Translations under genes and position numbers: made by a program
Notes under the pieces: model-generated
Database searches by the model: none
What the model saw: the letters and a program-made list of their open reading frames with translations, nothing else
What the model was told of the DNA's origin: nothing
Part shown: in pieces, positions 1,730 to 22,877 of the stretch
How positions within the stretch are numbered: position 1 is the first letter of the stretch
How the letters are laid out: every line of letters begins with the position of its first letter
IMG/VR virus record: IMGVR_UViG_3300013137_000102
Coordinates: 1-22,877 of that record
Reading direction: 5' to 3' (one strand)
Length of the DNA: 22,877 nucleotides
DNA from: a virus

Positions 1730-4393
1730 TTAAAAAAGACCAGCATCTATCGTATCGTATTCGGCAATAAAGATACTATATAAATTCGTAGACGCAGAAT
1801 AAATTGTGGTTGCAGAAACAGCTTGTAAAGATGTAACACCACTTGCCGTCAAGTCATTTATCGAAGGCGAACTAATTAAGTTTACAATTGGGTTATTTGG
1901 AGTCCCTCCAGTTGTAATGTTACTTCCTGGCTGAACTCTAGTTATATCTTCATTTGCTTGTGCTACAAACAAGTTAGACAAATCAGTAGAACCAGAGATA
2001 AAAGTAGAACCAGTTATTGAAGTTGTTGTATCAAATCTATATTCAGAAGCATTCCAATAAGCAAATCCATTTGAAATTGGATTATCTTCTCTGGTAGCCA
2101 CAGCTTGTGTGTCTCCAGTTGTTCCAACTCTAAATGTTTGACTTGCTTCTACAAATTCAAAAGCATATTGTTCAGCAATTCCTCTGTCAATCCAAATTCC
2201 AGCAAATTCTTTTGTAATTCCAGAATTTACTTCTCCATAATTAAGCGTAATTGTATTTGCTGAAATAAATACATTTTCAGTATGAGAAGTGAATGAAGTA
2301 CCTTCTACAAATAAATTTCCGTGAACTGTTAATGTATCTGTTGATGTTATTCCAAGAATTGTATTTCCACTTACAGTCAAATTATCTAATGTAGCTGCTG
2401 AAACATTTACAGTTGGATAATCTTCAGTTCCGCCAGTATAAGTGTTTAATCCATTCTGAACATAAGTTTTATTTAAATCAGAACCTATAGTTTGAAAAAT
2501 ATCATAAAGATTTGTACTTCCAGAAATATATGTATTTCCAAAAATAGTATTCGCCTGAATATTATTTGTATAAAAAGTCCAAGGACTCGAACCTATAATA
2601 TTTTGCGCTGCTGTAATTGTTGACCCAATTGCTGCTTGGGTTAGCATATTATTATAACCACCGACATGCGAATGATTAGCAAAAGTAGTAGTATAATACC
2701 CTTCAGCATGTGAATCTTCACCATTTGCAATTGTATTTCTACCTTCTGCATGAGACCCAAAATCTCCATTTGCAGTTGTGAAATCGCCCTCGGCATGTGC
2801 AGCTATCCCATATGCATATGAAACAATACCTTCGGCATGAGAACCTGTACCATACGCTCTTGTATTAGAACCTTCAACGTGTGATGAAATTCCGTTTGCT
2901 TGTCCACCATTACCTTCTGCATGAGAAGAGTCTCCACTTGCTAATGTTTGAAAACCTTCAGAGTGTGCTCCATTGAGGCCAATGGCCGTTGTATAATGTC
3001 CTTCTGCATGTGCTCCATAATCTCCATTTGCAATTGTATAACGACCTTCTGCGTGCGCACCCAAAGTCCCAATGGCCGTTGTAGCTCTACCTTCTGCATG
3101 TGAAGCCTGACCACTTGCATATGTTAAATATCCTTCTGAATGAGAATAGGAACCATAATTTGATGTTGAATGTCCTTCTGCATGAGAGTATTCACCATAA
3201 GCTTTGGTGCCATATCCTTCAGCATGTGCCCCATTGCCGTTTATAGCAGTCGTATTATTACCTTCAGTGTGAGAATATTTACTGTAGGCTTTTGTTTGGA
3301 ATCCTTCTGCATGAGAAGAAACCCCACTTGCTAATGAACTTTCGCCTTCTACGTGCGAAGATTCTCCATAGGCAGTAGTTGAATTTCCTTCAGAGTGTGC
3401 ATATCTATCAAGAGACTTTGTTCCGTTTCCTTCTGCATGAGAAGAATCAAAATTGGCAGTACTTGTATCACCTTCTGCGTGCGAAGATATTCCACTTGCA
3501 ACGGTTAAATATCCTTCTGCATGAGCATAACTTTTATGTGTTTTGGTTTGATTTCCTTCTGCATGAGAATAGTCTCCATTTGCCATTGTTAAATAACCTT
3601 CGGCATGAGAGGTCAATCCAGTAGCTTTAGATGTCTGTCCTTCTGCATGTGAATAATTTCCAGATGCTGTTGTAGTAAAACCTTCAGCATGTGCATCCAA
3701 TCCAAGCGCTTTTGACATATATCCTTCAGCATGTGCAGATTGACCTGTTGCTGTTGTAGAATCACCTTCTGCGTGTGCCCCATGAAATCCAATTGCCGTT
3801 GTAAAATAACCTTCTGCATGAGATTCGTCTCCATAAGCAGTTGTGCGTTGACCTTCTGCGTGACTTGCACTTCCAGTTGCCAAAACACTTTTTCCTTCGG
3901 TATGAGAATTAGCACCGCTAGCTGTTGTTGCATATCCTTCTGCATGAGAATAACCACCAAAGGTTGTTGAATAATAACCTTCTGCGTGAGAATCTATTCC
4001 AATAGATTTTGTATTATATCCTTCAGCATGCGAAGATGGTCCAGAAGCAGTTGTAGCATCACCTTCTGAGTGAGAATTGTCTCCACTTGCTATGGTAAGG
4101 GTCCCTTCTGTATGAGATGCTATTCCTATAGCGATTGTTTGTTGTCCTTCTGCCACAGCATAATCGCCAACTGCATCTGTTCCACTATCATTATTAGCTC
4201 TAATTGAAAAATTACCAGCAGAACCAGAAAACCACACATCAGAGCCTTGTGTTTGAAAAATATCATACAAGTTAGTGCTAGCAGAAAATATTGTAGATGC
4301 TGATAAATTTTGAGAAAAGTACGTATCTCCAGAAACAGTTCCCCCGCTCAATTTCAAATAATCAGTATTTATCGGCTTAATGTATTGTCCCAT
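1730..4393 (-). CDS. Large tail fibre with YadA-head-like SHAEG repeat shaft
   Basis: 887 residues. Residues 1-77 are an attachment region with LSGGT and SASTNLYDIF modules. Residues about 80-575 are 35 tandem units, mostly 14 residues, of the form H-A-E-G-x-x-T-T-A-x-G-x-x-S; six units have one extra residue. This fits the YadA-head type left-handed beta-roll of trimeric fibres. Residues 576-887 have non-repetitive fibre modules: a second and third copy of S-G-S-T-N-L-Y-D-I-F type sequence, a NLFVEGTSF...NTITLNYGEVNSG segment, AGIWIDRG, and VATREDNPISNGFAYWN, all common in phage fibres. The C-terminus repeats SASTNLYSIF. It is probably a trimeric host-binding fibre. A TATTTATA element lies 41 bp upstream. 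It is on the opposite strand to the tube and BppU-like genes beside it. Confidence 0.85.
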   Translation of the reverse strand: MGQYIKPINTDYLKLSGGTVSGDTYFSQNLSASTIFSASTNLYDIFQTQGSDVWFSGSAGNFSIRANNDSGTDAVGDYAVAEGQQTIAIGIASHTEGTLTIASGDNSHSEGDATTASGPSSHAEGYNTKSIGIDSHAEGYYSTTFGGYSHAEGYATTASGANSHTEGKSVLATGSASHAEGQRTTAYGDESHAEGYFTTAIGFHGAHAEGDSTTATGQSAHAEGYMSKALGLDAHAEGFTTTASGNYSHAEGQTSKATGLTSHAEGYLTMANGDYSHAEGNQTKTHKSYAHAEGYLTVASGISSHAEGDTSTANFDSSHAEGNGTKSLDRYAHSEGNSTTAYGESSHVEGESSLASGVSSHAEGFQTKAYSKYSHTEGNNTTAINGNGAHAEGYGTKAYGEYSHAEGHSTSNYGSYSHSEGYLTYASGQASHAEGRATTAIGTLGAHAEGRYTIANGDYGAHAEGHYTTAIGLNGAHSEGFQTLASGDSSHAEGNGGQANGISSHVEGSNTRAYGTGSHAEGIVSYAYGIAAHAEGDFTTANGDFGSHAEGRNTIANGEDSHAEGYYTTTFANHSHVGGYNNMLTQAAIGSTITAAQNIIGSSPWTFYTNNIQANTIFGNTYISGSTNLYDIFQTIGSDLNKTYVQNGLNTYTGGTEDYPTVNVSAATLDNLTVSGNTILGITSTDTLTVHGNLFVEGTSFTSHTENVFISANTITLNYGEVNSGITKEFAGIWIDRGIAEQYAFEFVEASQTFRVGTTGDTQAVATREDNPISNGFAYWNASEYRFDTTTSITGSTFISGSTDLSNLFVAQANEDITRVQPGSNITTGGTPNNPIVNLISSPSINDLTASGVTSLQAVSATTIYSASTNLYSIFIAEYDTIDAGLF
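2669..4162 (-). repeat. 35 in-frame imperfect 42-bp repeats encoding SHAEG units
   Basis: The block encodes 35 consecutive HAEG-type units, nearly all 42 bp (14 codons), with six 45-bp units; the DNA repeats a CTTCTGCATGTGA-like core on the plus strand. Variation between units is mostly at the x positions, so the protein pattern is better conserved than the DNA. Such arrays can gain or lose units by slippage or recombination. Confidence 0.9.
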
Positions 4394-7935: not shown

Positions 7936-8649
7936 TTAAAGTTCAGAAATTTTAATTGAAATTTTCTTTATTGTATTGACTTTCTCGAAATCAGTAGGGT
8001 CAACTATTTTTCCAAGTACAATTATTGGTACAGAAATTTGATAAATTCTCTCAGTTGTAATATCTTCCACTGCAGATTCATCAACTAATTCCCCCATCTT
8101 TGCAGCAATATCATAACCATTAACTTTTATGTACCCCTGACCATTACAAAATGCCCTGTTCAACATCATTTCATAAAAATCATCAACATCTTCCATATAG
8201 TGGCCAACAAACTTCACATCAAATTCAATATCAACATATGCTGGTTGTGGAATTTTATATAAATCATATCCTTTCAAAGTGCCATCAAATGAAGGAACTT
8301 TAACAAATGTGAACTTTTTTTTATTAGGAACTGTATATTTATTCGGTGCGCTACCGCTTTTTACCGCTGTTCTAATCAATGCAATGAAAGGCCTTCCAAT
8401 TTCTTCGCCACTTTCAGCCCTCATTTCTTTCCAATTCATTTTCCTTTCAGCCCACAATTCTTGCGTAAGATAAATAATTGGAACTCTCCTGGATTGTCCA
8501 TTTTCCATGATAACATGAAAATTTTGACTTTCAATAAACTGCTTAAATCCCATACTCAAATCCTCAATTCCCATCTTTTGTGGTAGAAAATTGTGATTTT
8601 CAAACTGTTTATCTAAATTCTTACCTATGCTCCTTAAAGGTGTACTCAT
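7936..8649 (-). CDS. Tail terminator / sheath stabiliser (T4 gp15-like)
   Basis: 237 residues (T4 gp15 has 272). The visible pattern fits tail completion proteins of contractile phages: RRVPIIYLTQELWAERK near residue 55, RPFIALIRT, a charged PNKKKFTFVKVPSF strand, IPQPAYVDIEFDVKF, the helix MEDVDDFYEMMLNRAF, then GYIKVNGYDI and a final ERIYQISVPIIVLG strand leading to KIVDP. In T4 gp15 caps the tail tube and sheath and joins the tail to the neck. The position between the neck genes and the sheath gene supports this. The closest alternative is a gp3-like tube terminator. A TATTTATA element lies only 9 bp from the start. Confidence 0.7.
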   Translation of the reverse strand: MSTPLRSIGKNLDKQFENHNFLPQKMGIEDLSMGFKQFIESQNFHVIMENGQSRRVPIIYLTQELWAERKMNWKEMRAESGEEIGRPFIALIRTAVKSGSAPNKYTVPNKKKFTFVKVPSFDGTLKGYDLYKIPQPAYVDIEFDVKFVGHYMEDVDDFYEMMLNRAFCNGQGYIKVNGYDIAAKMGELVDESAVEDITTERIYQISVPIIVLGKIVDPTDFEKVNTIKKISIKISEL

Positions 8650-8658
8650 TATTTTTTC

Positions 8659-8666
8659 TATAAATA
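8659..8666 (-). promoter_or_regulatory. TATTTATA late element for the tail terminator gene
   Basis: Exact motif in the minus direction within TTACTATTTATAGAAAAAA, 9 bp before the ATG at 8649. It lies back to back with the plus-strand host-type promoter at 8677-8708. Confidence 0.55.
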
Positions 8667-8676
8667 GTAAAAAATA

Positions 8677-8708
8677 TTTGCATTGTCAGTTTTTTTTTCA
8701 TAGATTTG
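8677..8708 (+). promoter_or_regulatory. Host-type (Bacteroidetes sigma) promoter facing into the gap
   Basis: TTTG (8677-8680) and TAGATTTG (8701-8708) match the Bacteroidetes -33 (TTG/TTTG) and -7 (TANNTTTG) consensus, with a 20-bp spacer that is within the usual 19-21 bp. Transcription would start near 8715 and run rightward, away from the tail terminator gene and antisense to the readthrough from neck 2. No protein-coding frame follows, so it most likely drives the structured RNA described next. Confidence 0.65.
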
Positions 8709-8900
8709 CCATAAATTTTAATCATTATATCAGACGGACAGAAATGCAACACCTGGGTATAATGTAAAGCTCTAAAGGGAAGTCATTGAGCAAGTTGAGA
8801 ATAAAAGGAATAACCAACGACAGGCGGATATATCATCCGAGTGTATTCCAGACCTAACCAGTGATATGATGAGTTAGGGAGCGAAAGGCGGGGGGCGACA

Positions 8901-8925
8901 CCTCAAAAAAAAGTGTTTAACTAAC
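8901..8925 (+). repeat. Direct repeat copy 1 (A8-GTGT core)
   Basis: CCTC, eight A, then GTGTTTAACTAAC. It is near-identical to the copy at 9002-9027, offset by 101 bp, with the long stem 8931-8983 between the two copies. Confidence 0.6.
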
Positions 8926-9001
8926 CGAACAGCTAAGTTCTCAAACTCAAAAAATTTTTTTTGGGTATAGGGGGAACTTAGCTCATGAACGAAAAAGCTA
9001 T

Positions 9002-9027
9002 CCCTAAAAAAAAGTGTATTAAGTAAC
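9002..9027 (+). repeat. Direct repeat copy 2 (A8-GTGT core)
   Basis: CCCT, eight A, then GTGTATTAAGTAAC. It is the second copy of the repeat at 8901-8925. On the minus strand both copies give ACAC followed by eight T. Confidence 0.6.
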
Positions 9028-9078
9028 TCTTATAATAAAAGAAATTTGTAATTAATAAGGGGATTTAACAAATAAAAG

Positions 9079-9645
9079 TTACCTACCTTTCATAACGTCT
9101 TCGTCAACCTCTTTACCCTTTATTGTGATATAGAATCTTCTATCCCCAGCCCATGAATGTTTATTTGAAATTTGGGAATATCCATCATCAGTAATTTCAT
9201 AATATTGCCCCTTATAATTGATATAATCCCCCATCTTGATTTTTGTTATGATAATATTACCGTTTTCTTTTTCTATTAACCCCAATTCCCTAAGTTGCTC
9301 TATGTATATGTGGGCAGTTAGGTTTCCGAAACCTTTTTTAACGAGTCCACCTTTTGCATGATAACTAGGGTCAATAACTTCTACGTTAATTCTTCCAAAT
9401 ATCTCAGTAGGAGGAAAGTAGTGTTTTACTTTGGCTTCGCCATAGAGGGGATGAACTTTCGTCTTGGCATAGTCAATTTTGAATAAAAGGAAACTTGTTT
9501 GCAAAATTCCTTCACTCACTTCTCTACCAGCGTTTGTAAAAAAATTAGCTTCTTTGTCAGAAAAAAATGTTTTTATCCCCTTAACGTCATTAAGGAGTTT
9601 ATTAACATCTTCTTGTTGTTTTCCTATTTCTCTTATATCAGACAT
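9079..9645 (-). CDS. Neck / head-closure protein (T4 gp14-like)
   Basis: 188 residues (T4 gp14 has 256). Features that fit gp14-type neck proteins are a helical N-terminus, FLLFKIDYAKTKVHPLYGEAKVKHYFPP around residues 52-80 (the LYGEAxxKxY stretch is characteristic), INVEVIDPSYHAKGG, a helix YIEQLRELGL, and a closing beta pair MGDYINYKGQYYEITDDG ... GDRRFYITIKGK. The protein would bind the portal-side neck ring and seal the head after packaging, linking to the tail terminator. It starts 6 bp after the neck 1 stop, so the two are translated from one message, although a TATTTATG element inside the end of neck 1 could also start a shorter transcript. Confidence 0.72.
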   Translation of the reverse strand: MSDIREIGKQQEDVNKLLNDVKGIKTFFSDKEANFFTNAGREVSEGILQTSFLLFKIDYAKTKVHPLYGEAKVKHYFPPTEIFGRINVEVIDPSYHAKGGLVKKGFGNLTAHIYIEQLRELGLIEKENGNIIITKIKMGDYINYKGQYYEITDDGYSQISNKHSWAGDRRFYITIKGKEVDEDVMKGR

Positions 9646-22370: not shown

Positions 22371-22500
22371 ACATACTCCCACGGCTGAAGCACGGGGGAT
22401 TCTGGTTTTAAAATAACGGTTGCAGTTCCACATTTCTGTGGCACTGTCTTACACTGTCTATACCAAGAGAAGATGTCCCTTCTCTTAAAATATTTTTTGC
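22368..22500 (-). ncRNA. TnpB omega-RNA region (3' end of tnpB plus right end)
   Basis: In IS200/IS605-type elements the guide RNA spans the end of tnpB, its 3' untranslated region and the right end, and its guide is the flanking DNA. Here, on the minus strand, a GNRA-capped stem CCACA-GAAA-TGTGG (22441-22428) overlaps the last tnpB codons, and an imperfect right-end hairpin with a TTCA loop follows (about 22397-22376). The element then ends in GTATGTCAA, the common end sequence of this group. The upstream limit is approximate. If active, the guide would start at 22367 and run toward lower positions. Confidence 0.6.
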
Positions 22501-22877
22501 AGCATTATGGTCACGGTCATGGTGCATTCCGCAATCTGGGCAAGTCCAATCACGAATGCCTTCATCCAGTTTTCCAACAATATGCATACAGCTGCTGCAT
22601 ATTTGCGTGGATGGAAACCATTTATCAACAAAGACAACCCGCTTTCCATATTCTGCTGCTTTATATTTAAGTTTATCATAGAAACTGCCTGGTGATAAGT
22701 CAAACACTTTTTTTGCACGATTGCGTTTTTGTTTCGCTCCAGTTAATCTTTTGTCTTTCTGCATCTGCAAAAAAGACAGACTCTCAAGACATATTGTGTC
22801 AAAAGAGCGGACAATGTGCAATGCCATTTTCCACTGCCAGTCATTGCGCTGGTTCACAACATGTTCATGCAAGGAAA
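22408..22877 (-). CDS. tnpB: TnpB RNA-guided nuclease, C-terminal part (runs off right edge)
   Basis: About 155 C-terminal residues are visible; the frame is open to the window edge, so the true start lies outside. It reads SLHEHVVNQRNDW, then the RuvC-II strand DTICLESLSF with the catalytic Glu, a basic KQKRNRAKKVFDLSPGSF segment, YKAAEYGKRVVFVDKWFPST, the zinc ribbon CSSC...CPDC, and the RuvC-III segment HDRDHNAAKNIL with the final catalytic Asp. These are the conserved parts of TnpB (OrfB_Zn_ribbon), a nuclease guided by the omega-RNA made from the 3' end of its own gene. All visible catalytic and zinc-binding residues are intact. The stop is TAA at 22410-22408, 38 bp inside the element end. 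Confidence 0.92.
   Translation of the reverse strand, partial: SLHEHVVNQRNDWQWKMALHIVRSFDTICLESLSFLQMQKDKRLTGAKQKRNRAKKVFDLSPGSFYDKLKYKAAEYGKRVVFVDKWFPSTQICSSCMHIVGKLDEGIRDWTCPDCGMHHDRDHNAAKNILREGTSSLGIDSVRQCHRNVELQPLF

Follow-up and report, generated by a model that had tools for sequence, protein, structure and literature searches.

The window analysed here, a 22,877-base record of IMG/VR, has T4-like structural genes that lie mostly on the - strand, and it raises the question of what occupies a 429 bp gap, at 8650-9078, between two of its - strand genes. No ORF longer than 30 aa is found there, in agreement with an earlier reading of the sequence only, which had described a geneless gap of this size between neck 2 and tail terminator. 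That sequence-only reading had also seen a G-rich composition in AT-rich surroundings, and GC content does rise to 0.41-0.48 across 8750-8949 from about 0.33 around it, with the GC skew turning positive in the same segment. Our comparisons indicate that the gap almost certainly holds a + strand noncoding RNA gene whose fold has been preserved by evolution. The features referred to below are, in order:

7936-8649, - strand: flanking late gene (neck 2 of the earlier reading; neck gene below)
8659-8666, - strand: putative phage late promoter of the neck gene, TATTTATA as read on this strand, divergent from the RNA promoter
8677-8708, + strand: Bacteroidetes sigma-A-type promoter of the RNA, TTTG (-33), N20, TAGATTTG (-7); exact match at a conserved place
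8713-9013, + strand: conserved core of the structured noncoding RNA; start predicted, 3' end uncertain within 9003-9050, homologues in L002 and L005
8724-8763, + strand: 5' hairpin P1, ATTATATCAG / CCTGGGTATAAT; shape retained in L005 with other sequence
8755-9003, + strand: tentative long-range helix H1, 8755-8759/8999-9003
8769-8791, + strand: hairpin H2, GCTC/GAGC; TCCA/TGGA in L005, 3/4 pairs compensated
8807-8849, + strand: helix H3, GGAATA/TATTCC; GGAACA/TGTTCC in L005, CGAAT/ATTCG in L002
8825-8829/8835-8839, + strand: inner hairpin H4 within H3
8853-8878, + strand: hairpin H5, CCTAACCA/TGAGTTAGG; 4/8 pairs compensated, 100% paired
8890-8898, + strand: G-rich motif GGGGGGCGA, common to all three relatives with the window's fold
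8931-8983, + strand: 12 bp helix H8, containing H9; second G run at 8970-8974
8945-8953/8958-8966, + strand: nested 9 bp helix H9, inside H8
8955-9013, + strand: alternative pairing of TTTTTTTTGGGTATAG (8955-8970) with CTATCCCTAAAAAAAA (8998-9013), excluding H9; hypothetical switch
9079-9645, - strand: flanking late gene (tail terminator of the earlier reading; tail gene below), convergent with the RNA

The Bacteroidetes sigma-A consensus has TAnnTTTG at -7 and TTTG near -33 (PMC7366714, PMC9723704), and the + strand of the gap matches the pattern TTTG-N20-TAnnTTTG exactly, with TTTG at 8677-8680 and TAGATTTG at 8701-8708. Placing the -7 box at -12 to -5 puts the predicted RNA start near 8713. 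This loose pattern occurs five times in the window against 1.4 expected, which is weak on its own; unlike such a bare match, the conserved position of the promoter appears decisive. In 24 of 30 homologous loci the pattern NTTG-N19-21-TANNTT[TG]G begins 26-38 nt from the neck gene and faces the other way (0.13 in 30 expected, with the background taken from the same loci), and the remaining six carry near variants as judged by eye. The claim of a textbook Bacteroidetes promoter facing against the surrounding genes was therefore well founded. Judged from the promoter type only, the host is probably a member of the Bacteroidetes. In a relative with a 372 kb contig, 42 host-type promoters were counted, compared with 17 for a reversed control.

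A TAAATA-type motif adjoins the RNA promoter in 29 of the 30 loci. On the coding strand, TATTTATA is present 13 times in the window against 3.1 expected, mostly 10-42 nt upstream of gene starts; given this excess and placement, we take the copy before the neck gene to be that gene's phage late promoter. Found in the sense orientation before many late genes, it is the probable late promoter of this phage clade, and it is the reverse complement of the T4 motif TATAAATA. The RNA gene thus points away from the neck gene and towards the tail gene, and its core extends into neither of them. Describing it as antisense in a late operon was imprecise, since there is no gene that it overlaps and a separate late-type promoter motif serves the neck gene.

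Folding energy of the single sequence was moderately better than that of shuffled versions (z of -1.9; 3/100 shuffles) and, since chance would supply 1.4 copies of the promoter pattern in the window, the claim required comparison with relatives. L002 was found through its tail gene and L005, on the 372 kb contig, through a neck profile, and in each the RNA occupies the corresponding place. When the three sequences are aligned, 19 of 56 predicted pairs show double-sided changes, 95% of cells pair and 0/500 shuffles reach any of the measures, a shuffle control that ignores relatedness. Pairing collapses when the partners are slid against each other, although the structure was derived from the same three sequences and is for this reason favoured over the slid versions. 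Compensated helices among these relatives include CGGAT/ATCCG to CGAAT/ATTCG, CCTAAC/GTTAGG to CCCAAT/ATTGGG, GGAATA/TATTCC to GGAACA/TGTTCC and GCTAAG/CTTAGC to GCAGAG/CTCTGC. It is covariation in the alignments, rather than folding energy, that carries the case for a structured RNA.

The stems, nested pair and perfect stem of 10-12 bp described earlier are recovered as a perfect 10 bp stem (8931-8940/8974-8983) within H8 and as H9 nested inside it. The span then proposed, 8677-9040, does hold a structured stretch on the + strand; its conserved core stops near 9003-9013 and not at 9040. P1 was read by eye and is misaligned in one alignment (A5). It is an alternative to H1, both using 8755-8759, and in H1 two of five pairs are compensated and two are broken in L005. 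Further downstream, a single U8G3 strand is able to pair with an A-rich strand either upstream (8945-8953) or downstream (8998-9013); the second of these pairings, TTTTTTTTGGGTATAG/CTATCCCTAAAAAAAA, is 88% complementary and retained by eye in L002 and L005, and may represent a switch.

Among pairs with Watson-Crick double changes, GU wobble was found in 20 columns and AC in 5 on the + strand, compared with 3 and 9 for structures predicted on the - strand. At the level of sequence comparison, this asymmetry marks the + strand as the functional RNA and, together with the covariation, supports the proposal that this strand encodes a functional, structured RNA driven by a host-type promoter. A larger count, 51 GU against 10 AC, came from folding the + strand only, is biased toward it, and was set aside for the two-strand count. 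The RNA of the window is 91% identical to that of L002, beside fourfold sites of the flanking genes that are 34-48% identical, which points to strong selection or to recombination of the RNA gene. We keep an exchange of the RNA as a possibility because the RNA of L005 is only 60% identical, at a protein distance similar to that of L002.

About 30 other contigs have a gap of some 300-430 bp (larger in L029 and L030) with a second, commoner RNA fold, in which a 5' hairpin with GGGGGCGUUG.UUUC is followed by ACACUG...AUGGUAG, a variable multibranched domain, GGGGGGCGUU and CCCUAA.UCUGGUAG. In a ten-sequence group 31/69 of its pairs are compensated, and in a seven-sequence group 15/55. The covariation in homologues by which the sequence-only reading had proposed to check its RNA is thus present in three groups, the window's fold and two of the commoner one, and none of 500 shuffles does as well on the main measures. 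The 5' part of the commoner fold was modelled from 22 members, and this covariance model scores every member searched, as well as L159, which lies outside the model, weakly (E 0.001). It did not detect the window's fold, nor did a model built on that fold detect the commoner one; by these searches the two do not seem recognisably related, no shared sequence being detected. Both end in a C-rich stretch followed by A's and both contain long G runs; six-G runs are also present elsewhere in the 372 kb relative, which rules them out as a locus-specific signal. In L019 a third, longer sequence stands behind the same promoter, related to neither fold by the comparison made. There the gap is 585 bp (L019:2349-2933), the sequence looks structured, and it has a sub-threshold match to RF02932 at about half the gathering score.

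Two G-rich strands of the commoner fold, one in the loop of the 5' hairpin and the other the 3' strand of a long helix, are near-identical. By eye, they vary between lineages and tend to agree within one: L016 has GAGGGCGUUAG and GGAGGGCGUUAG, L008 U in place of C in each copy, L031 GGGGGCUUGGU twice, L035 GGGAGCUUGGU twice and L159 ACUUGU twice. Since the two strands change together between lineages, both probably contact the same partner, and this concerted change suggests a common one that may be external or internal. An internal switch would equally explain the paired G-rich motifs. Exchange between the strands is an attractive model for such a switch; in a duplex-energy test, own pairs gave -9.5 and cross pairs -8.3 kcal/mol, a slight difference only.

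The phages with this RNA form a T4-like clade that includes at least one jumbo phage. In IMG/VR the DNA pattern of the commoner fold matched 18 viral contigs, namely 17 known carriers, all at the locus, and one new contig (L127), also at the locus, and matches of the window-fold pattern in viral contigs were limited to those of L002 and L005. A search of 84,980 prokaryote genomes with the commoner pattern gave two matches, one in Chryseobacterium within a transposase-like gene and one in Treponema where the rest of the RNA is missing by eye, and both were rejected as chance; as the search pattern was strict, distant cellular relatives remain possible. The neck profile had no match in the prokaryote genomes, and among 50,697 phage records there was no cultured relative of the neck protein. 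Model searches of phage records gave at most one significant RNA copy per record, and BLASTN in those records returned short AT-rich matches only.

Not every relative keeps the RNA. In G002 and G008 it is replaced by a winged-helix gene, the two being 26% identical to each other, and G009 carries the RNA. The winged-helix genes (L158:2273-3088 and L160:586-1428, both + strand) differ in their orientation to the neck gene, one running with it and the other against it, and no such gene was found in the other fetched loci. In distant T4-like phages the two late genes are adjacent, mostly with no gap; in L162 a GIY-YIG-like gene, assigned by eye, stands between them. Small genes follow the RNA in its own direction in L029, L030 and L008, and those of L029 (1471-3501, - strand) are a clustered insertion of small ORFs without assigned function. 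From these winged-helix, GIY-YIG-like and small genes, it follows that the locus also accepts cargo.

Rfam 15 gave no match at the gathering threshold and chance-level E-values only at permissive thresholds, so the covariance-model search that had been suggested assigns no known identity, and ARAGORN found no tRNA or tmRNA in the feature. With no ORF and no dispersed copies, the feature does not appear as a fragment of an ordinary coding or mobile element. A group I/II intron or other mobile ribozyme was rejected on the lack of an Rfam match and of dispersed copies, and the earlier suggestion of a relic of a mobile ribozyme is further disfavoured by the single fixed locus and the strong conservation. 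A packaging or guide RNA, proposed at the same time, found no support. In particular, a TnpB guide RNA (omega RNA) was rejected, the sole tnpB-like fragment being 13 kb away and the RNA not at a tnpB 3' end. GOLLD and ROOL, which had no Rfam match here either, are likewise structured noncoding RNAs, often in phages and of unclear function; the window's RNA occurs in different phages, at a fixed place between late genes, and is presumably half their size or less. A structured 6S RNA is known in Bacteroides (PMC7366714). This host RNA had no Rfam match in the gap, and the RNA found here is multibranched instead of a single long hairpin with an open central bubble; takeover by an RNA polymerase mimic is nevertheless conceivable. 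No description of the RNA was found in the open literature, most subscription papers lying outside this coverage, and it apparently constitutes an undescribed family among the structured noncoding RNAs of phages.

As to its role, comparison between loci establishes the position, promoter, strand, fold and conservation of the RNA, and our tentative preference, with a probability of about 0.4, is for a dedicated noncoding RNA gene whose early product acts in trans during takeover. Host RNA polymerase would transcribe it soon after infection, ahead of phage late transcription; we infer this timing from the promoter, which is of host type and unlike the phage late motif. The product of about 300 nt would fold into a stable multibranched structure and act as decoy or regulator, two roles also named in the earlier reading, on a complex of protein or RNA from the host (or the phage), trans action being inferred from the lack of an obvious cis target. 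We rank this reading first, as some relatives do without the RNA and have another gene in its place, and as no particular gene regularly follows it. Against trans action, the RNA was never seen at another place, though a free trans-acting gene could move.

That fixed place, with one copy, is what one would expect of the main rival, a replication-origin RNA acting in cis, in which a host-promoter transcript would form or regulate an R-loop primer, as for T4 oriE/oriF or ColE1 RNA II, and in which competing strands and G and A runs would control primer formation. ColE1 RNA II has competing pairings, and such pairings occur in both folds here. The known origin RNAs are also noncoding transcripts at a fixed place under a host-type or early promoter, and T4 offers both precedents, an early promoter at oriE and an R-loop at oriF (PMC3016281). 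In the 372 kb relative, moreover, the GC-skew minimum lies about 19 kb away. However, T4 origin R-loops need no specific sequence (PMC3016281), whereas the fold here is conserved, and the skew shows no clear origin at the locus: it follows gene strand, so that we discarded it as origin evidence, and third-position skew has no step at the RNA. The RNA is also missing from two relatives. We regard an origin role as rather unlikely. A cis-regulatory RNA or attenuator-like switch, where transcription through it would govern early genes lying downstream or disturb the late genes on either side, seems rather doubtful too. The mutually exclusive pairings of the window's fold would suit it, as would the same-direction genes of L029, L030 and L008 and the head-to-head arrangement of the RNA promoter with the late motif of the neck gene; yet the window and most relatives have only the convergent tail gene after the RNA, no terminator was found, and the folds vary between clades while the neighbours are constant.

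Distinctly unlikely, in our estimate, is an early RNA machine in which two duplicated strands would exchange partners during synthesis, priming replication or capturing a host complex, and for which one fixed locus would harbour two or more unrelated folds, each preceded by the same promoter. A packaging or virion RNA would fit a place between head-tail genes. phi29 pRNA is likewise transcribed from an early promoter and keeps its fold while its sequence drifts. The RNA described here is larger, multibranched and from a T4-type phage, has no match to the Rfam pRNA family and is absent from relatives sharing the same head-tail genes, and T4-type packaging motors are not known to need RNA; such a role is very improbable. 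That the gap holds no functional RNA, only a mobile-element relic, chance structure or an element at the DNA level, is scarcely credible: the site does take inserted genes, and the two folds have no detectable sequence in common, but compensatory changes, strand-specific wobble, strong conservation and the absence of copies elsewhere contradict it.

Phage takeover is usually told through proteins, and a selected RNA under a host promoter is a candidate for an RNA-based tool of takeover or replication, carried by a whole uncultured clade that keeps the fold while the sequence turns over. With alignments and covariance models at hand for both folds, it can be searched for in metatranscriptomes.

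Three other features of the window and its relatives deserve mention. At 22408-22872 (- strand), a fragment of a TnpB-like (Cas12f1-like TNB) transposon protein reaches the right contig edge, and its guide RNA end would be to the left. At 1730-4393 (- strand), an 887-aa protein has dozens of SHAEG-type repeats, like YadA-head-like fibre or adhesin repeats. Finally, bases 1-80000 of the 372 kb contig (G001; L138-L141) contain about 45 tRNA genes, among them two with CUA and one with UUA anticodons of suppressor type, which makes stop-codon reassignment possible in some genes.
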